Part shown: positions 3,615-33,043 of the stretch, piece by piece
Layout: every line of letters starts with the position of its first letter
Position numbering within the stretch: position 1 is the first letter of the stretch
Assembly (NCBI GenBank): GCA_902780235.1
Contig: CACZEL010000024.1
Coordinates: forward strand, 1 to 60,626
DNA: 60,626 nucleotides
Direction: 5' to 3'
From: an uncultured Bacteroidales bacterium
GTDB taxonomy: Bacteria; Bacteroidota; Bacteroidia; Bacteroidales; Paludibacteraceae
Translations under genes and position numbers: made by a program
The notes under the pieces: model-generated
Told to the model about the DNA's origin: nothing
The model's input: only the letters and a program-made list of their open reading frames with translations
Database searches by the model: none

Positions 3615-4286
3615 ATGAAGTTAGTATTTGCAAGCAATAATGCGCATAAGTTGGACGAGGTAAGGCAGATCATGCCTGCCGATGTGGAAGTACTGAGCCT
3701 CAGCGAGATCGGTTTCGAACAAGAGATCGAAGAGACCGGAGAGACTTTGGAGGCTAATAGCGAGATAAAAGCCCGCACGGTGGCGGCTTTTATAGGTGAA
3801 AGGTTAAAAGTGAAAGGTGAAAGGATAGACGGCGTGTTTGCGGATGATACGGGATTGGAGATTGATGCCTTGGGCGGCAAACCGGGTGTATACACGGCAC
3901 GGTGGTACCGTTTGAATGATGGAATGAGCGCGGCTGCGCCGCTCAATGATGAAATGATGATCTTTGCGGCCAATCGGGCAAAGGCTTTGCAAGAACTGAA
4001 AGGCGAAACCGACCGAGGAGCGCAGTTTAGAACCGTGATCACACTGATATTAGTCGAAAGAGAAAAGACCGCTTTGCTCAAAGAAAAAAGAACTATTCAG
4101 GTGAGCGGTATCGTTCGCGGACGGATCGCGGAAGAGGAATACGGACAAGGCGGTTTCGGGTACGACCCCGTCTTTATTCCCGAAGGCTACGACAAGACCT
4201 TCGGCGAACTGCCGGCAGAAATAAAAAACAGTATCAGTCATAGGAGTCGCGCCTTGCAAGCGCTCGTAAAAACGTTAAAACGTTAA
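3615..4286 (+). CDS. rdgB: XTP/dITP diphosphatase (non-canonical purine NTP pyrophosphatase)
   Basis: RdgB/HAM1 family enzyme that hydrolyses XTP, dITP and ITP to the monophosphate, keeping deaminated purines out of DNA. Seen: N-terminal nucleotide loop 'LVFASNNAHKLDEVRQIMP', 'ADDTGLEIDALGGKPGVYTA', and the C-terminal 'GYDPVFIPEGYDKTFGELPA' with 'KNSISHRSRALQAL'. At 223 residues it is longer than the usual 190-200. The excess includes 'ERLKVKGERI' (about residues 62-72), which is the translation of heptads AGGTGAA/AGGTTAA at 3794-3827, and a second insertion 'ERLKVKGE..NDGMSAAAPLNDEMM' region before the helix. The C-terminal VKTLKR comes from the hairpin-array sequence at 4264-4286. Confidence 0.94.
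   Translation: MKLVFASNNAHKLDEVRQIMPADVEVLSLSEIGFEQEIEETGETLEANSEIKARTVAAFIGERLKVKGERIDGVFADDTGLEIDALGGKPGVYTARWYRLNDGMSAAAPLNDEMMIFAANRAKALQELKGETDRGAQFRTVITLILVEREKTALLKEKRTIQVSGIVRGRIAEEEYGQGGFGYDPVFIPEGYDKTFGELPAEIKNSISHRSRALQALVKTLKR
3794..3827 (+). repeat. 7-bp repeat array translated inside rdgB
   Basis: Degenerate heptads of the form AGGTGAA (four to five units) inside the coding frame, giving about 11 extra residues next to the ADDTGLE motif. The frame is kept, so the protein tolerates the insert. Confidence 0.7.
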
Positions 4287-4339
4287 AATGGTTTGTTTCA
4301 CAAACGTTAAATAGTTAAGATGGTTTTACTTCGTAAAAC
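4264..4339 (+). repeat. hairpin-spacer array at the rdgB-porZ junction
   Basis: Spacer GTTAAAACGTTAAAATG (4274-4290), hairpin GTTTGT-TTC-ACAAAC (4291-4305), spacer GTTAAATAGTTAAGATG (4306-4322), hairpin GTTTTAC-TTC-GTAAAAC (4323-4339). Both stems are perfect with 3-nt loops, both spacers are 17 nt. The ATG that closes the second spacer (4320-4322) is the porZ start codon. Same architecture as the larger array upstream of trmD. Confidence 0.85.
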
Positions 4340-7300
4340 GTTATATATAATAGTTGCCTTGTGTGTGGCGATGAGCATACATGCAGAGGCATGGCGGACG
4401 CATTTTGCGTACAACAACGTGACGCAGATCGCGTTGGGTTCGGACGTGGTGTATGCCTTGTCCGACGGCAGTTTATTCAGCGTCAACAAACAGACGGAGG
4501 CCGTCAAGGTCTATAACCATCAGTCAGGTCTGCACGGAACAGGTATCACCTGCATCCATTACGACGCCCTCGGTTCGCAGTTGCTCATCGGTTACAGCAA
4601 CGGTCAGATCGACCTGCTCACCTCGAACGGCGTCCGCTATATCGGCGACCTGTACGACAAGGACATGACCCAGCGCAAGACGATTTACAACGTCACTCTC
4701 CAAGGTCGAACAGCCTATCTCTCTACCCCTTACGGCGTCCAGACGATGGATATGCGCGAGTACAAGTTAGTGGATAGCTACTGGCTTCGTCCCGGCGGAC
4801 AGGAGATCGAAGTGAAGGATGTGCTGCTGACCAAAGACAGTATCTATGCCTTCACGGACGACAGTCTCTTTTGCGCCAAGCAGACCGATAACCTCGTCGA
4901 TTATCGGGTATGGAAGCGCGAGAAGAGCGGTCGAGTGTCGCCGGACACCGAGAAAGGTGCGCATTACAAGGACGGTTCTGATCACTGGTACCGCGGTTAC
5001 GAGGAAGGTATCATCCGTCAGACGGCTACGACCCGCCTGACCTACAAGCCACAAGGACCCTTGACGAACAAACCGTACTACCTGTCGGTAATAGGCAATG
5101 AGGTGATCATGCTGCAGGGAGGTCGATGGACCGCGTCGCACCAGAACCCGGGTCATGTCATGCGACTGGTGGACGGCACATGGCATAACATATCCGCCGA
5201 GAGCATTCAGCAAGCCACCGGCGCCGCTTATGTACTCGACTTCATGAACGCGGCCGTCGATCCGGCAGATGCCAATCATTATTTCGTAACCAGTTACGGA
5301 ACGGGTCTCTATGAGTTCCGCGGCGATCAATGCGTCGGATACCGCTTGGCAGATGACGTGATCAAAGCGATCATCCCGACCAATCCGGCGCGTTACACCC
5401 GCCTCCTGGGTGCGCATTACGACTCCGCCGGTCGGTTATGGTTCTTGGACGCAGGCGTCGATCAGCCGGTCTATGTGCAGCAAGGTACGCAGACCGTCGG
5501 TTTGCCGCTCGTGATCAACGGTGTACCGAAGAGTTATGAGGTGATCGGCGACCTCTTGATCGACCGTCGCAACGAGCAACATAAATGGATCAGTATTGCC
5601 TACAAGGGTTCGGGAATGGTACTGCTCAACGACGGCGGCACACCCATGGACGCTTCCGACGATGCCGCTTTCTTCCGCGGCGAATGGACCAACCAGAACG
5701 GACAGACCTTCAAACCAACCAGTATCTTCGCCCTCTGCCAAGACCGGCAGGGACGTATCTGGATGGCTACCGACCAAGGAGCAGCCTATATCGACGCCAC
5801 CACGGATTTCCTGCAATCGGATGCGATCATCCAACCGGACGTGATGGACACGAACGGCGAGAACCCGATCAAAGGGGTACGTATCAAAGCCGTTTGTCAG
5901 GACGCCGACGGACAGATCTGGATCGGCAGCGAGAGTTTAGGCGTCTATGTGCTCAACGAGGCAGCGACCGAGATCGTCGCACATTACACCACCGATAACT
6001 CCGCCATGTCCGGCAACGGCATCCTCTCCCTGAGCAGCGCCACCGACGGACGGGTCTTCATCGGCACCTCCGAAGGACTGGTCGAATACGACCCGAACGG
6101 ACACGGAGAAGGACTGAACGGATCCACGGATGAGGGAATGAACGGATTAGAGGAAGGCAGCATGCTGAACTGGAAACTGCATTTCTCTTACTTCAACCCG
6201 CAAGAGATAGCCGCCACACCCGAAGCGATCTACGCACTGGCCAACGGATCGCTGTTCAGCGTCAACCGTGCCGATGAATCGATCACCTATTGGAACAAAT
6301 CCACCGGTTTGACCGGTACCTCGGTCAGCCATATCGCCTATGACGCCACCACCGAACAGCTCGTGATCGCGTACGAGAACGGGCAAGTGGACCTGCTGAG
6401 CGCGAACGGCAAGGTCGTGCAGATGCCCGACATAGCCTTGAAAGCCGGTTCGATAGACGTAGGCGTACGCGACATATGCGTCGGATCGAAACACACCTAT
6501 TTCGCGATGTCGTTCGGTATCGTGGCTATTCAAACCAAGAAAGGCGAGGTGACGGACACCTATTATATCGGCGACGATGCCGCGGCCATCACCATTCAGC
6601 AGGTGGCGGAGATGGGTGACTCCCTCTATGCTTTCTCCTTCGACAAGCTCTATCGCGGTGCGCTCAAAGACAACCTCGTCGATTATTCGTTCTGGCAGAG
6701 CGAGACGATCCCGTTTGACGAGGTCGAACAAGCCTGCGTCTATAAGGATCAACTGTACGTGCTGGCGCACGACTCGCTCTACCGACGTGACAAGAGCGCT
6801 TGGTTGCTCGTTCACCCGGACCCGCTGGATTGGATCCATGTGAGCGACGGACAGCTGCTGACGTACCAACGCGGCACGGGTATGCTCTACCTCGCGGACG
6901 ACGGCAGCATGCGCGGCTTGACCAACTCCTATATCGCTACTGACGGTGTCTATACGAACGGCGAGTACTGGCTTGCCGAAGAAGAGCGCGGACTGATTCG
7001 GCTCGGCAGCAGCGGGGACACCCGTCTCATGCCAGACGGACCGATGACTAATTTCGGTTATCATCTCGACATCGCCCATGACCGTCTGTATGTTTCTCCC
7101 GGCGGACGTTGGGCTACGGAGTATGTCCGGGACGGCGCAATGAGTATCTATGACGGACATAACTGGATCGGTATCCCCTGGCAACAGACTTGGGCCGCTT
7201 CGGGTCATGCCATCCGCGACGTGGTCCAATACGCCGTCGATAGATCCGATCCGGGACATTTCTTCGTCGCTACCTACGGTACGGGTGTGTTCGAGTTCCG

Positions 7301-8390
7301 GGACTACATGGCCGTTCAGCATTACGATCCGTCCAACAGCAGCTTAAGCAAAGTGAATGCCTCGGTGGACGAGTATTACTTCACCCGTACGGACGGCGCT
7401 ATGATGGACGAGCAGGGCAACCTGTGGGTACTGAACGCGACCGAGTTGGGTCGTCCGCTTCATGTTCGCACGCCCGACGGCTTATGGTACGCCTTCCGAT
7501 TGAGAAGCAACGGCATGGACTTATCTTTCGAGACCCCGGCAGGTATATGGACCGATCATCGTAAGGGACAATGGAAATGGCTGATGAACCAACGCGGTAA
7601 GCCTCAGCCCTCTCTGGTACTCTTCGACGACGGCGGTACACCTACCTACAACGGCGACGACCGCTGCATCGCCCGCAGTTCGTTCATTGATCAGGACGGC
7701 AAGCAAGTGAGTCCGTCGTTTTTCTTCAGTTTTGCGCAAGACCAAAACGACCGCATATGGGTCGGTACCGACAAGGGTATCATCTTATTCCCGAAAGAGA
7801 CCGATTTCTTCAACTCGAATGCCTGCCGGCGTATCATCATCCCGCGTAATGACGGCACAGGTTTGGGCGATTATCTCTTAGGCGACGAGCAGATCAAGTG
7901 CCTCGCCGTGGACAGCGGCAACCGCATGTGGATCGGTACCGCCAACTCGGGTCTGTACCTGATCGAAGATGACACGATCACCGTAGCCCATTTCACGGAG
8001 ACCAACAGTCTGCTGCCGTCGAACAGCGTGCAGTCGATCGCTATCATGCCCAAGACCGGTGAGGTGTTCGTCGGTACGGATCGCGGTATCGCGTCCTACC
8101 GCAGTGACGCCAGCGAAGCGAAAGCAGACATGAGCGAAGCGTATGCCTACCCCAACCCCGTGCGTCCTGACTACGGCGGCTATATCAGTATCACCGGCCT
8201 GATGGACAACACGGTGGTCAATATCATCGATGCCGGCGGCAACCTGGTCTGCAAGACCCGCAGTCACGGCGGCACCGCTGTCTGGGACGGAAAACTGCCG
8301 GACGGCAGACGCGCTACTCCGGGCGTCTATACGGCCCTTTGCAATGCCGAGAAAGGGCATGCGGCGGTGAAGATTTTAGTGATTCGATAA
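4320..8390 (+). CDS. porZ: PorZ-like type IX secretion attachment-complex protein, with internally duplicated propeller region
   Basis: A 1356-residue secreted beta-propeller protein. Signal peptide about 1-22; first propeller region starts 'AWRTHFAYNNVTQIALGSDV', a typical PorZ opening, with repeated two-component-regulator-propeller strands such as 'DGQIWIGSESLGVYVLNE'. At residue ~615 the same opening recurs ('LNWKLHFSYFNPQEIAATPE' then YALANGSLFSVN), and a full second region follows. Residues ~1275-1356 are a type IX C-terminal domain ('AYPNPVRPDYGGYISITGLM' to 'VKILVIR'). Known PorZ proteins are roughly 750-800 residues with one such region; they sit at the cell surface with PorU/PorV and help attach cargo to A-LPS. 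Here four propellers are predicted. The start codon lies in a hairpin array, so the first codons (MVLLRKT) encode one hairpin. Confidence 0.82.
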   Translation: MVLLRKTLYIIVALCVAMSIHAEAWRTHFAYNNVTQIALGSDVVYALSDGSLFSVNKQTEAVKVYNHQSGLHGTGITCIHYDALGSQLLIGYSNGQIDLLTSNGVRYIGDLYDKDMTQRKTIYNVTLQGRTAYLSTPYGVQTMDMREYKLVDSYWLRPGGQEIEVKDVLLTKDSIYAFTDDSLFCAKQTDNLVDYRVWKREKSGRVSPDTEKGAHYKDGSDHWYRGYEEGIIRQTATTRLTYKPQGPLTNKPYYLSVIGNEVIMLQGGRWTASHQNPGHVMRLVDGTWHNISAESIQQATGAAYVLDFMNAAVDPADANHYFVTSYGTGLYEFRGDQCVGYRLADDVIKAIIPTNPARYTRLLGAHYDSAGRLWFLDAGVDQPVYVQQGTQTVGLPLVINGVPKSYEVIGDLLIDRRNEQHKWISIAYKGSGMVLLNDGGTPMDASDDAAFFRGEWTNQNGQTFKPTSIFALCQDRQGRIWMATDQGAAYIDATTDFLQSDAIIQPDVMDTNGENPIKGVRIKAVCQDADGQIWIGSESLGVYVLNEAATEIVAHYTTDNSAMSGNGILSLSSATDGRVFIGTSEGLVEYDPNGHGEGLNGSTDEGMNGLEEGSMLNWKLHFSYFNPQEIAATPEAIYALANGSLFSVNRADESITYWNKSTGLTGTSVSHIAYDATTEQLVIAYENGQVDLLSANGKVVQMPDIALKAGSIDVGVRDICVGSKHTYFAMSFGIVAIQTKKGEVTDTYYIGDDAAAITIQQVAEMGDSLYAFSFDKLYRGALKDNLVDYSFWQSETIPFDEVEQACVYKDQLYVLAHDSLYRRDKSAWLLVHPDPLDWIHVSDGQLLTYQRGTGMLYLADDGSMRGLTNSYIATDGVYTNGEYWLAEEERGLIRLGSSGDTRLMPDGPMTNFGYHLDIAHDRLYVSPGGRWATEYVRDGAMSIYDGHNWIGIPWQQTWAASGHAIRDVVQYAVDRSDPGHFFVATYGTGVFEFRDYMAVQHYDPSNSSLSKVNASVDEYYFTRTDGAMMDEQGNLWVLNATELGRPLHVRTPDGLWYAFRLRSNGMDLSFETPAGIWTDHRKGQWKWLMNQRGKPQPSLVLFDDGGTPTYNGDDRCIARSSFIDQDGKQVSPSFFFSFAQDQNDRIWVGTDKGIILFPKETDFFNSNACRRIIIPRNDGTGLGDYLLGDEQIKCLAVDSGNRMWIGTANSGLYLIEDDTITVAHFTETNSLLPSNSVQSIAIMPKTGEVFVGTDRGIASYRSDASEAKADMSEAYAYPNPVRPDYGGYISITGLMDNTVVNIIDAGGNLVCKTRSHGGTAVWDGKLPDGRRATPGVYTALCNAEKGHAAVKILVIR

Positions 8391-31345: not shown

Positions 31346-31359
31346 GAGAAAAGTGTATA

Positions 31360-31431
31360 AAAACAAAGAAGGATGTCTCCCGACATCCCAATCTTTTTAC
31401 TTAACCTTAAATCTAATACCATGAAAAACAC
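31360..31431 (-). ncRNA. candidate small RNA with own promoter and terminator
   Basis: Minus strand: promoter at 31436-31469, then about 50 bases including 'GGTATTAGATTTAAGGTTA', then a terminator GGATGTC-GGGA-GACATCC followed by TTCTTTGTTTTT. The unit ends before the psuK promoter, so it is free-standing, about 70 nt. I have the impression that the TTAGATTTAAGG block recurs in Bacteroidales genomes, but cannot name the family. A short frame (MVLDLRLSKKIGMSGDI) crosses the terminator and could instead be a leader peptide. Confidence 0.55.
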
Positions 31432-31555: not shown

Positions 31556-32236
31556 TTAGTTTTCTTCTAATAAATCGGGCCTTCTTTCGGCTGTATGCGC
31601 CAAAGACTGCTCGTACATCCACTCTTCGATCTTCGCCTGATGTCCGCTCAAGAGTATCTCCGGCACTTTCCATCCTTTGTACTCTGCCGGCCGCGTATAG
31701 ACCCCTGCTTCGAGCAGTCCGTCCTGGAACGAGTCATTAAGCGCTGACTCCACGTCGCCCAGCGCACCGGGCAGCAGACGCACGATAGCGTCTGTCATCA
31801 TCACTGCCGGCATCTCGCCGCCGGTAAGCACGAAATCGCCTATACTGTACTCGCGCGTGATAAGATGATCGCGCACGCGTTGATCCACACCTTTATAGTG
31901 CCCGCAAAGGATGATAATGTTCTGCTTGAGCGACAGACTGTTCGCCGCTTTCTGGTCAAAACGTTCGCCGTCAGGAGCGGTGAAGATGATCTCATCATAC
32001 TCCCGTTCGGACTTCAGATGGGAGATGCAGCGGTCGATCGGTTCTACCTGCAACACCATGCCTGCACCGAAACCGAAAGCGTAATCATCCACCTTACGAT
32101 GCTTATCCAGCGTCCAATCCCGCAAGTTATGCACGTAGATATCGCAAAGGCCTTTATCCTTCGCACGCTGAATAATGGAATGGTTCAACGGAGATTCCAG
32201 TAATTCGGGACAACATGTAATTATATCAATTCTCAT
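31556..32236 (-). CDS. trmD: tRNA (guanine-N1-)-methyltransferase
   Basis: Methylates G37 of tRNAs reading CNN codons, preventing frameshifts. 226 residues, trefoil-knot SPOUT fold. Seen: '[20 protein letters not shown]', '[20 protein letters not shown]', '[20 protein letters not shown]', and the knot '[20 protein letters not shown]' plus '[20 protein letters not shown]'. The start codon is 5 bases from a six-hairpin repeat array that forms its whole upstream region; no standard promoter was seen there. Confidence 0.97.
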
Positions 32237-32240
32237 ATTA

Positions 32241-32407
32241 GTTTTTCTTCGAAAAACGTTAAAAAGTTAAAATGGTTTTTACTTTGTAAAAACGTTAAAC
32301 TGTTAGAATGGTGACGTTGTCACGTTAATCGAAATAACGTTCGTAGAACCATCTTAACTGATTAACGTCCGAAGGACCATCTTAACCATTTAACGTGACG
32401 CAGTCAC
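32241..32407. repeat. six-hairpin array with 17-nt spacers, upstream of trmD
   Basis: Perfect hairpins with 3-nt loops: GTTTTTC-TTC-GAAAAAC (32241-32257), GTTTTTAC-TTT-GTAAAAAC (32275-32293), GTGAC-GTT-GTCAC (32311-32323), GTTC-GTA-GAAC (32339-32349), GTCC-GAA-GGAC (32367-32377), GTGAC-GCA-GTCAC (32395-32407). The first three are joined by spacers GTTAAAAAGTTAAAATG and GTTAAACTGTTAGAATG; the last three by the reverse complement, CATCTTAACTGATTAAC and CATCTTAACCATTTAAC. A central GTTAATCGAAATAAC joins the two halves, so the array is itself an inverted repeat. It fills the entire yidD-trmD gap. Confidence 0.93.
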
Positions 32408-32408
32408 T

Positions 32409-32666
32409 CTAAGGCACCGGATCATAGCCTGAACCGCCCCAAGGATGACAACGGCAGATACGCTTGATGCCAAGCCAGCCGCCTTTGAAAATGCCGTACT
32501 TGAGTACCGCTTCTACCATATACTGACTGCAAGTCGGTGTATAACGGCAAGCAGGCGGCGTCAAAGGAGAGATGAAAACGCGATAGAAATAGACCGGAAG
32601 AAGGAAGAATTTTCTGACGAAAATCTTCCATTTGTCGTTGGTCGTTTGTCGTTGGTCGTTAGTCAT
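32409..32666 (-). CDS. yidD: membrane protein insertion efficiency factor YidD
   Basis: Small membrane-associated protein that helps YidC insert proteins. 85 residues from the ATG that overlaps the rnpA stop (ATGA), the usual coupling of this pair. Core is canonical: '[20 protein letters not shown]', '[20 protein letters not shown]', '[14 protein letters not shown]'. The first 13 residues ([13 protein letters not shown]) are not family-like: they are the translation of heptads ACTAACG/ACCAACG/ACAAACG at 32630-32666. Confidence 0.95.
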
Positions 32667-32668
32667 TT
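32630..32668. repeat. 7-bp repeat array translated as the YidD N-terminus
   Basis: Plus-strand heptads TTTGTCG, TTGGTCG, TTTGTCG, TTGGTCG, TTAGTCA. The array spans the end of rnpA and the first codons of yidD. Same unit family as at 3534-3608. Confidence 0.88.
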
Positions 32669-33043
32669 CTCCGCTATTTTCTTCAGGGCTTTGCATATTG
32701 CTTTTTCTATGACCGCGTACGGTTGTTCTTCCTTATCCATGTAGTTGAAGGCGATCATGTAGTTATACCTCAAACCGTCATCGGTGGGATGGATTAAGAT
32801 ATCCTGATGCAGACGATAGGCTTCGCGCATCAGGCGGCGCAGATGATTGCGCTTCACGGCTCTTTTGAAGAGCGATTTCGGTGCCCAAACGAGTACTTGG
32901 GTATCCAAGGGAGACGCTTCGTTGGAGATGAGCGTCTGATAAGTCACACGAAGCGGCCACGCCGTAAAGCGTTTGCCATTTTTGTACAAAGCGGCGATGC
33001 GCTCTTGTCCGCAAAGTCTGCTATGTTTGGGGAAAGTTTTCAA
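32663..33043 (-). CDS. rnpA: ribonuclease P protein component
   Basis: Protein subunit of RNase P, which trims tRNA 5' ends. 126 residues. Seen: '[20 protein letters not shown]', and the RNR signature '[20 protein letters not shown]'. The frame opens with TTG at 33043 rather than ATG; no ATG is available before the conserved region. The TTG sits at the edge of a heptad array (33047-33083), so the start is inferred. Confidence 0.94.

Follow-up and report, generated by a model that had tools for sequence, protein, structure and literature searches.

The window analysed here, a stretch of 60,626 nucleotides from an uncultured bacterium of the Paludibacteraceae (order Bacteroidales), carries on its minus strand yidD (32409..32696; Pfam YidD, 7.9e-31) and, downstream of it in the direction of transcription, trmD (31556..32236; Pfam tRNA_m1G_MT, 7.5e-57), and the junction between them is occupied by an array of six mini-hairpins (32241..32407). 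The trmD side of the array reads on the plus strand: hairpin 1 (GTTTTTC-TTC-GAAAAAC, stem of 7 bp, 32241..32257) forms the trmD-proximal edge and abuts exactly the first linker (17 nt, GTTAAAAAGTTAAAATG, 32258..32274), which is followed by hairpin 2 (GTTTTTAC-TTT-GTAAAAAC, 8 bp, 32275..32293), another linker (17 nt, GTTAAACTGTTAGAATG, 32294..32310) and hairpin 3 (GTGAC-GTT-GTCAC, 5 bp, 32311..32323). The orientation then flips at a centre of 15 nt (GTTAATCGAAATAAC, 32324..32338), and the yidD side reads on the minus strand, with hairpin 4 (GTTC-GTA-GAAC, 4 bp, 32339..32349), a linker (17 nt, GTTAATCAGTTAAGATG on the minus strand, 32350..32366), hairpin 5 (GTCC-GAA-GGAC, 4 bp, 32367..32377), a further linker (17 nt, GTTAAATGGTTAAGATG on the minus strand, 32378..32394) and hairpin 6 (GTGAC-GCA-GTCAC, 5 bp, 32395..32407), which adjoins the yidD stop codon; hairpins 4 and 5 have their GNA loops on the plus strand. 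All six perfect stems, with their loops of 3 nt (on the plus strand TTC, TTT, GTT, GTA, GAA and GCA), their GT start and their AC end, are confirmed where a sequence-only reading of this DNA had placed them, and a script with a minimum stem of 5 bp found four of the six again, both 4-bp stems lying below that limit. The same reading had given all spacers as 17 nt, which is right for four of the five intervals, two per strand, but not for the central turning point. The array folds better than every one of 200 dinucleotide shuffles, both as DNA, whichever strand is taken (z -3.67 and -3.20), and as RNA of the trmD-sense strand (z -4.80). An Rfam scan of the window gave four matches, none of them over the array. 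The Rfam FopS small RNA (RF04319, 73.3 bits) lies at 31358-31431 (minus strand), downstream of trmD in the direction of transcription, and in the N-terminal part of yidD (32631-32658) TTTGTCGTTGGTCG is present in two exact copies.

A second array of the same family lies at 4274..4343 on the plus strand, where it overlaps the end of a Ham1-family gene. It is composed of a linker (4274-4290), the hairpin GTTTGT-TTC-ACAAAC (4291-4305), a linker (4306-4322), the hairpin GTTTTAC-TTC-GTAAAAC (4323-4339) and a terminal GTTA (4340-4343), and its last linker and hairpin contain the ATG and first codons (MVLLRKTL...) of a PorZ-like gene (4320..8390, plus strand) whose protein has 1356 amino acids. Frames of at least 60 codons are opened by just five of 75 linker ATGs, those of the PorZ-like protein and of LpxK in G029, the closest species by TrmD, among them, and a general role of linkers as translation starts is rejected on this count. 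At several gene ends that read CGT TAA, the GTTAA of an array provides the stop codon. That arrays serve as start and stop codons seems to be a matter of co-option rather than the reason for the repeat. Palindromic elements of Rickettsia are palindromic repeats that contribute codons to proteins as in-frame insertions inside genes; the codons supplied here are start and stop codons at gene ends. Separately, in array-less relatives the gene after coaD seems to start inside coaD with an overlap of about 40 nt, as judged by eye (L187, L179, L202, L206), and in the genome of the window (G000) an array (L016) separates the two genes, the second of which gains a signal-peptide-like start.

Across the 2.28-Mb genome of the window, the linker GTTAAANNGTTARRATG is matched exactly 33 times and its reversed control never, and a looser pattern that tolerates two mismatches has 135 against 49 for the control. 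It is part of an octamer series, GTTAAANN, which also builds tandem runs (at the places listed for the looser pattern), and the plan of the unit is a hairpin GT..AC, the linker GTTAAANN GTTARRATG, the next hairpin and so on, laid out on one side or on two sides of a turning point. Further copies, whose absence would have spoken against the sequence-only reading, are abundant, and its description of a conserved linker carrying variable, self-complementary hairpins holds for a dispersed family present in G000 and many genus members. Exact linkers occur in 29 of 101 genomes, namely in 27 of 61 of the genus and in two of 40 from other families of the order (G070 and G092), and many of the 34 genus genomes without an exact linker are incomplete. 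The counts are patchy, with 33 in G000, 44 in G029, 35 in G001 and none in G003 (75% complete), although the TrmD of G003 is 96% identical to that of G000. Outside the genus, the linker alone matches in G070 and once in G092, and the linker followed by GT matches in one of 148 other genomes of the order, again G070, where by eye it marks a tandem run without a hairpin; this locus of another family (L237, G070:C108:8905-8961) consists of tandem GTTAAAAT/GTTAAAT-type repeats without the hairpins described here. A search of viral contigs for phage carriage with two hairpin-unit patterns gave no exact match.

Within 858 kb, 20 linker clusters were located, one inside an open reading frame, one unclassed and 18 classed by gene orientation. 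The classed clusters comprise 12 co-directional, 5 convergent and 1 divergent site, the last a miscall of yidD, and their siting is not clearly different from that of background gene pairs (471, 99 and 79, respectively). In eight of the 12 distinct centres of two-sided arrays, the core GTTACTATGCAGC precedes an end that is AAC or resembles TAAC, and this common core supports the dispersal of whole arrays; the centre of the trmD array is without it. The two-sided arrays of G001 (L244, L254, L264) are built around another centre (GATTA..CTAACTACTTAAC-like) and carry hairpins of a distinct type, as if each lineage had amplified its own version of the array. The repeat family is intergenic, specific to a single genus of gut-dwelling bacteria and apparently undescribed.

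To avoid choosing hairpins by their pairing, a slot was defined as whatever separates a linker from the next GTTA. From 138 contexts, 93 slots were obtained, 52 of them unique, while 45 contexts gave none (the octamer run continues or GTTA is out of reach). Perfect self-complementarity is seen in 44 of the 52 unique slots, and 185 of 191 inner pairs beyond the constant GT..AC are complementary, against a mean of 129.5 (sd 5.5, maximum 151) when the 3' arms were re-dealt 2000 times among slots of equal length. Thirty loci from two more distant species, G001 and G043, behave alike: pairing is perfect in 28 of 32 slots, and of the inner pairs 134 of 140 are complementary (shuffled mean 95.5, maximum 119). 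Loops of the form TNC, which are GNA on the opposite strand, occur at 99 of 125 linker-hairpin contacts (TTC 51, TGC 27, TAC 20, TCC 1), a hairpin flanked by two linkers being counted twice, and in 34 of the 52 unique slots. The bias is weaker in G001 and G043, where 15 of 32 slots have it and ten have 4-nt centres. The GNA loop is reported to give very stable DNA mini-hairpins (PMC6479982, citing Yoshizawa 1997), and the strand with the GNA triloop may be the one favoured for folding.

The 125 contacts involve 31 distinct stems of 4-9 bp, and inner hairpins recur, GTGCTTCGCAC and GTTTTACTTCGTAAAAC being counted 13 times each, so that the stems seem to owe much of their variety to copying. Two forms of one hairpin class are related by paired change, GTTTTGATTGCATCAAAAC in G000, G029 and G001 and GTTTCGATTGCATCGAAAC in G001. 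The earlier proposition that both arms of these stems had changed together is only partly borne out: much of the variety looks like copying from a repertoire, while a paired change in place is seen, by eye, at lgt. The facing linkers of two-sided arrays pair with each other because they are inverted copies. A large cruciform through such linker-linker pairing is predicted by folding and was not taken as selected, the variable NN of facing linkers being mismatched by eye.

The arrays come and go between close species. Ten of the 17 array loci of G029 have an orthologous stretch in the G000 sample; both species have an array at L088, L089, L096, L097 and L111, G029 alone at L090, L091, L092, L095 and L114, and G000 alone at trmD, ffh, porX, coaD and lgt. 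Around trmD, the combination of linker and hairpins is present in only two of 30 loci (L022 and L039), and what the sequence-only reading took for a replacement of the usual sequence upstream of trmD is more aptly described as an insertion into the short junction of yidD and trmD, whose filling changes from species to species. Short tandem repeats at this junction (L022-L051) differ greatly across the species of the genus, with CCCTAA-like runs at L029, octamers at L030 and L049 and a repeated copy of the yidD end at L038. At the position of hairpin 6, the GTGACTNCGTCAC hairpin is also present in G002, G054 and G103, and in a mismatched version in G004. Followed by GTTA, it stands directly 3' of the yidD stop codon at L022, L030, L032 and L043 (mismatched at L035), with or without the remaining array, and it varies mainly at the middle of the loop.

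Three of the five arrays common to G000 and G029 are identical at 284 of 286 positions (62/62 at L088, 71/71 at L089 and 151/153 at L111), against 336-337, 363-377 and 366-368 identical positions per about 400 in their respective flanks. L088 and L111 stand out clearly from their flanks, L089 only slightly, since its flanks are 91-94% identical and 71/71 is little above expectation. The array at L096 differs between the two species in octamer number and by substitutions, and that at L097 has lost its middle in G000 by an internal deletion. Simple descent with the same exact stems and no covariation, which the sequence-only reading had named as a refutation, does hold for some arrays of this species pair, but for neither the trmD array, which G029 lacks, nor the family, whose stems differ. 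That two shared arrays are far less changed than the genes beside them hints at a function in some arrays, which may be structural, as in REPs, and exerted at the ends of mRNAs.

The principal result comes from the array edges. A perfect stem that ends exactly at the first GTTA and measures 4 bp or more is found at 45 of 62 array starts, compared with 6.2% of 6000 random positions, and one of 7 bp or more at 20 of 62, compared with 0.18%; these starts, taken from the G000 sample and 17 G029 loci, include some G000/G029 orthologues, so that not all are independent, and a few weak linker matches. The other 17 starts are without a stem of at least 4 bp. At four genes, hppA, tpiA, prfB and ffh, the 3' end of the gene and a reverse copy of it make up the outermost hairpin (14, 12, 11 and 9 bp, respectively), and that edge stem was found in none of the array-less loci examined (28, 8, 8 and 7). 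The gene names at the edges are based on NCBIfam matches to fragments, mostly below full-length cut-offs, as expected for fragments.

In both array carriers at hppA, the coding sequence of VSFHL and AGGTGAAAACTAAC form the 14-bp stem. None of the 28 other loci has that arm (30 of 34 matches were taken as loci), their best stem of any kind being 7 bp, and the coding arm differs by one base in array-less G013 and G018. Elsewhere, the hppA end of G040 (L161) has a 7-bp palindrome at the stop codon and no array, which could be chance or an array-free copying event. At prfB of G029, GGAATTTCCGG is followed by CCGGAAATTCC and the stem of 11 bp compares with at most 4 bp in eight array-less loci. The coding arm is unchanged in array-less G000, G003 and G031; in G000 and G003 this identical arm leads without a gap to the start of the next gene (TAATGG), a junction that recurs in G036, where two bases of the coding arm are changed. 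The right end of the prfB array joins the old junction at TTA. The ffh stem of G000 (9 bp, against at most 5 bp in seven array-less loci) has a coding arm that is unchanged in array-less G029, and the tpiA stem of G029 (12 bp, against at most 3 bp in eight array-less loci) one that is unchanged in array-less G000; a tenth tpiA locus, in G030, bears an array of its own, whose stem is 5 bp long. For tpiA, prfB and ffh the edge script scores only arms extending 4 nt or more beyond the stop codon, and it is blind to coaD, lgt, porX, ruvX, rbfA and sppA, whose arms are coding.

Some joins of arrays show microhomology. At tpiA, TAATT, five bases of the new arm, is already present in the array-less junction of G000, and at porX, CCAAAG of the arm is already present in array-less G031; since these short matches predate the arrays, they could have served to prime the copying. 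At coaD, ruvX, lgt, sppA, porX and L095, coding sequence makes up all or part of both arms, thus some edge hairpins arose by adjusting existing sequence, and in several of the all-coding edges the palindrome is, as judged by eye, better in the array carrier. The perfect arms at lgt differ among three species (by eye GTCTCGAT/ATCGAGAC in G000, GTCTTGATA/TATCAAGAC in G030 and GTCTTGA/TCAAGAC in G002) with GTTAAATAG next in each. A new arm that is an exact reverse complement of the sequence beside it and is absent in relatives, as template switching would leave it, is seen at hppA, tpiA, prfB and ffh in comparisons of 8 to 30 loci per site, and is missing or unclear at coaD, ruvX, lgt and sppA. 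Hence, of the two causes that the sequence-only reading had offered for such an array, selection for structure and a mechanism that writes palindromes, the latter has direct support at four edges.

The dispersal of the family, its fixed linker, the perfect but variable hairpins, the presence and absence differences and the four reverse-copied arms are all observed. The reading that we prefer, with a probability of roughly 60%, is that the family is a REP-like intergenic repeat confined to the genus, and that fold-back (template-switch) copying writes its terminal hairpins on arrival at the end of a gene. At the sites examined, the array enters short gene junctions and adjoins the 3' end of a gene. 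Upon insertion, a single-stranded 3' end at the terminus of the gene would fold back, sometimes on the few matching bases already present (TAATT at tpiA, CCAAAG at porX), and would be extended by copying the gene end. Copying would then switch to array sequence beginning with GTTAAA, presumably supplied from elsewhere in the genome, and the array would rejoin the old junction through a TTA microhomology such as that at prfB. Copying, switch and join could take place in one event, during replication or repair. A hairpin made in this way would be born perfect through template switching, which is reported to create perfect hairpins (PMC8794818), and later copies of the array would carry a repertoire of such hairpins. 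Several observations count against this model, namely the edges with coding arms, the outer hairpins that resemble terminators, the 17 starts without a stem and the weaker TNC bias in G001 and G043. Moreover, if arms were rewritten frequently, shared arrays should drift, yet three of five are nearly identical.

One alternative is a non-autonomous element of the REP or IS200-IS605 type, in which a Y1 (HUH) transposase cuts single-stranded DNA by the TAAC/GTTA at the hairpin foot and moves hairpin-linker units. The constant GTTA at that foot, the frequent GNA loops on one strand, the prfB join at TTA and the intergenic siting all fit such an element, but by eye the transposase does not appear to follow the repeat. 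The profile PF01797 has no match in G000 (79% complete) or in array-rich G001, both incomplete genomes from which a gene may be missing, and a single match, below the cut-off, in G029. Of 71 genus genomes, 18 have it above the cut-off, among them several that lack an exact linker, and by eye its presence does not go with copy number. A transposase would also leave the arms copied from the flanking gene unexplained; we regard this account as unlikely, and a Y1/HUH transposase was rejected as driver, its presence by eye not tracking array number. A reverse transcriptase was also set aside as driver, PF00078 being present in four of eight array-rich and four of 13 array-poor genomes without evident association. 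Selection alone, which would make the hairpins functional DNA or RNA structures whose paired changes were kept by natural selection, is equally improbable. It would account for perfect pairing in so many different stems, for the shared arrays that changed less than their flanking genes, for the fold z-scores of the trmD array and for the paired difference at lgt, but by itself it gives no reverse copy of 9-14 bp of coding sequence at four unrelated genes, absent in array-less relatives. Nor does it sit well with the 34 of 61 genus genomes, many of them incomplete, that have no exact linker, or with a trmD-junction array in just two of 30 loci.

The repeat might instead insert beside hairpins that were there before, such as terminators, and the outer hairpins at L019 and on the right side of L111 do resemble ordinary terminators. 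In addition, the GTGACTNCGTCAC hairpin stands at yidD in other species without an array of the trmD type, and the sppA and lgt arms overlap coding quasi-palindromes that are partly present in array-less relatives. This order of events is contradicted at hppA, prfB, ffh and tpiA, where the array-less relatives examined have no comparable hairpin and where, at prfB, the TAATGG junction of array-less G000, G003 and G036 leaves no room for one, which makes it a poor candidate for the family at large. The least probable account, to which we give hardly any credence, is an artefact of assembly or binning. The named records are nearly all metagenome-assembled genomes and palindromes can confuse assemblers, but arrays at orthologous places match between genomes of separate species, and one exact hairpin unit occurs in nine contigs from seven separate assemblies of several projects. 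The contigs, two of which, from one isolate, are of goat rumen origin, are assigned to uncultured Bacteroidales or Paludibacteraceae, and with them the suspicion of an assembly artefact raised at the outset falls away.

In open-licence full text searched for palindromic repeats of Bacteroidetes, repeats of Paludibacteraceae and intergenic repeats of Bacteroidales, no title or abstract matched a Bacteroidota repeat of this form, in line with the sequence-only reading. A likeness to the attC sites of integrons, whose box is GTTRRRY, was dropped because the box polarity does not seem to fit. A close likeness exists with REP/BIME sequences, described as small intergenic palindromes, often in opposed pairs and often with very short loops, that have a short constant end tag (PMC3733652). 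CGTC-tagged REPs, reported in Bacteroidetes in the same source, differ in tag from the linker-hairpin repeat, and REP/BIME families are there defined by a GTAG or CGTC tag together with stem and loop sequences (PMC3733652), whereas in the present family constancy lies in the linker and the stems are free to vary. The slots read ATG-GT..AC-GTTA, with CGTT at the foot and no constant CGTC or GTAG, and the 31 distinct stems among 125 contacts give no stem consensus; GNA-triloop mini-hairpins are found in most, not all, cases (15 of 32 in G001/G043). Unlike REP/BIME, the present hairpins have GTTA at their foot, no Y1 transposase tracks the repeat as far as the eye can judge, and some outer hairpins use the sequence of the neighbouring gene.

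Further studies (PMC7202029, PMC8604942) reportedly deal with replication template-switch mutations that create or repair hairpins. In such mutations, reverse-complement copying in one step yields a perfect stem or corrects a stem that was imperfect (PMC8794818); the mutations described there are scattered, whereas here the event appears tied to the boundary of a specific repeat family. Hairpin elements of sponge mitochondria are likewise scattered, lineage-specific intergenic invasions by hairpin repeats, but they are mitochondrial, and the abstract mentions neither a fixed linker nor gene-copied arms (PMC2800124). The coding palindromes of Nematomorpha mitochondria are similar in being perfect inverted repeats over coding sequence with the protein kept, but they are mitochondrial, reach 284 bp and lie inside genes, and the abstract gives no link to dispersed arrays (PMC6649704).

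Taken further, these comparisons raise the tentative idea, which we hold to be less probable than its negation, of a new class of repetitive element, whose terminal inverted repeats would not be carried along but written at insertion by reverse-copying the end of a host gene, which would regenerate perfect hairpins on a fixed linker and which would enter gene products through stop and start codons (LpxK, the PorZ-like protein).

The gradual paired mutation of a hairpin requires a broken intermediate, and the origin and upkeep of perfect hairpins is an old question. The family described here offers natural pairs of sites with and without an array, which let one read the template, a coding sequence that is conserved, together with its copy and with the form that lacks an array, and with dozens of arrays per genome the template-switch route becomes testable in bacteria. 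At several sites its outermost hairpins are apparently a rare natural record of the writing of hairpins into genomes, and its arrays show repeats turning into the starts and ends of genes for housekeeping proteins. They also carry a warning: where copies differ by paired changes, this is not necessarily proof that structure was selected.
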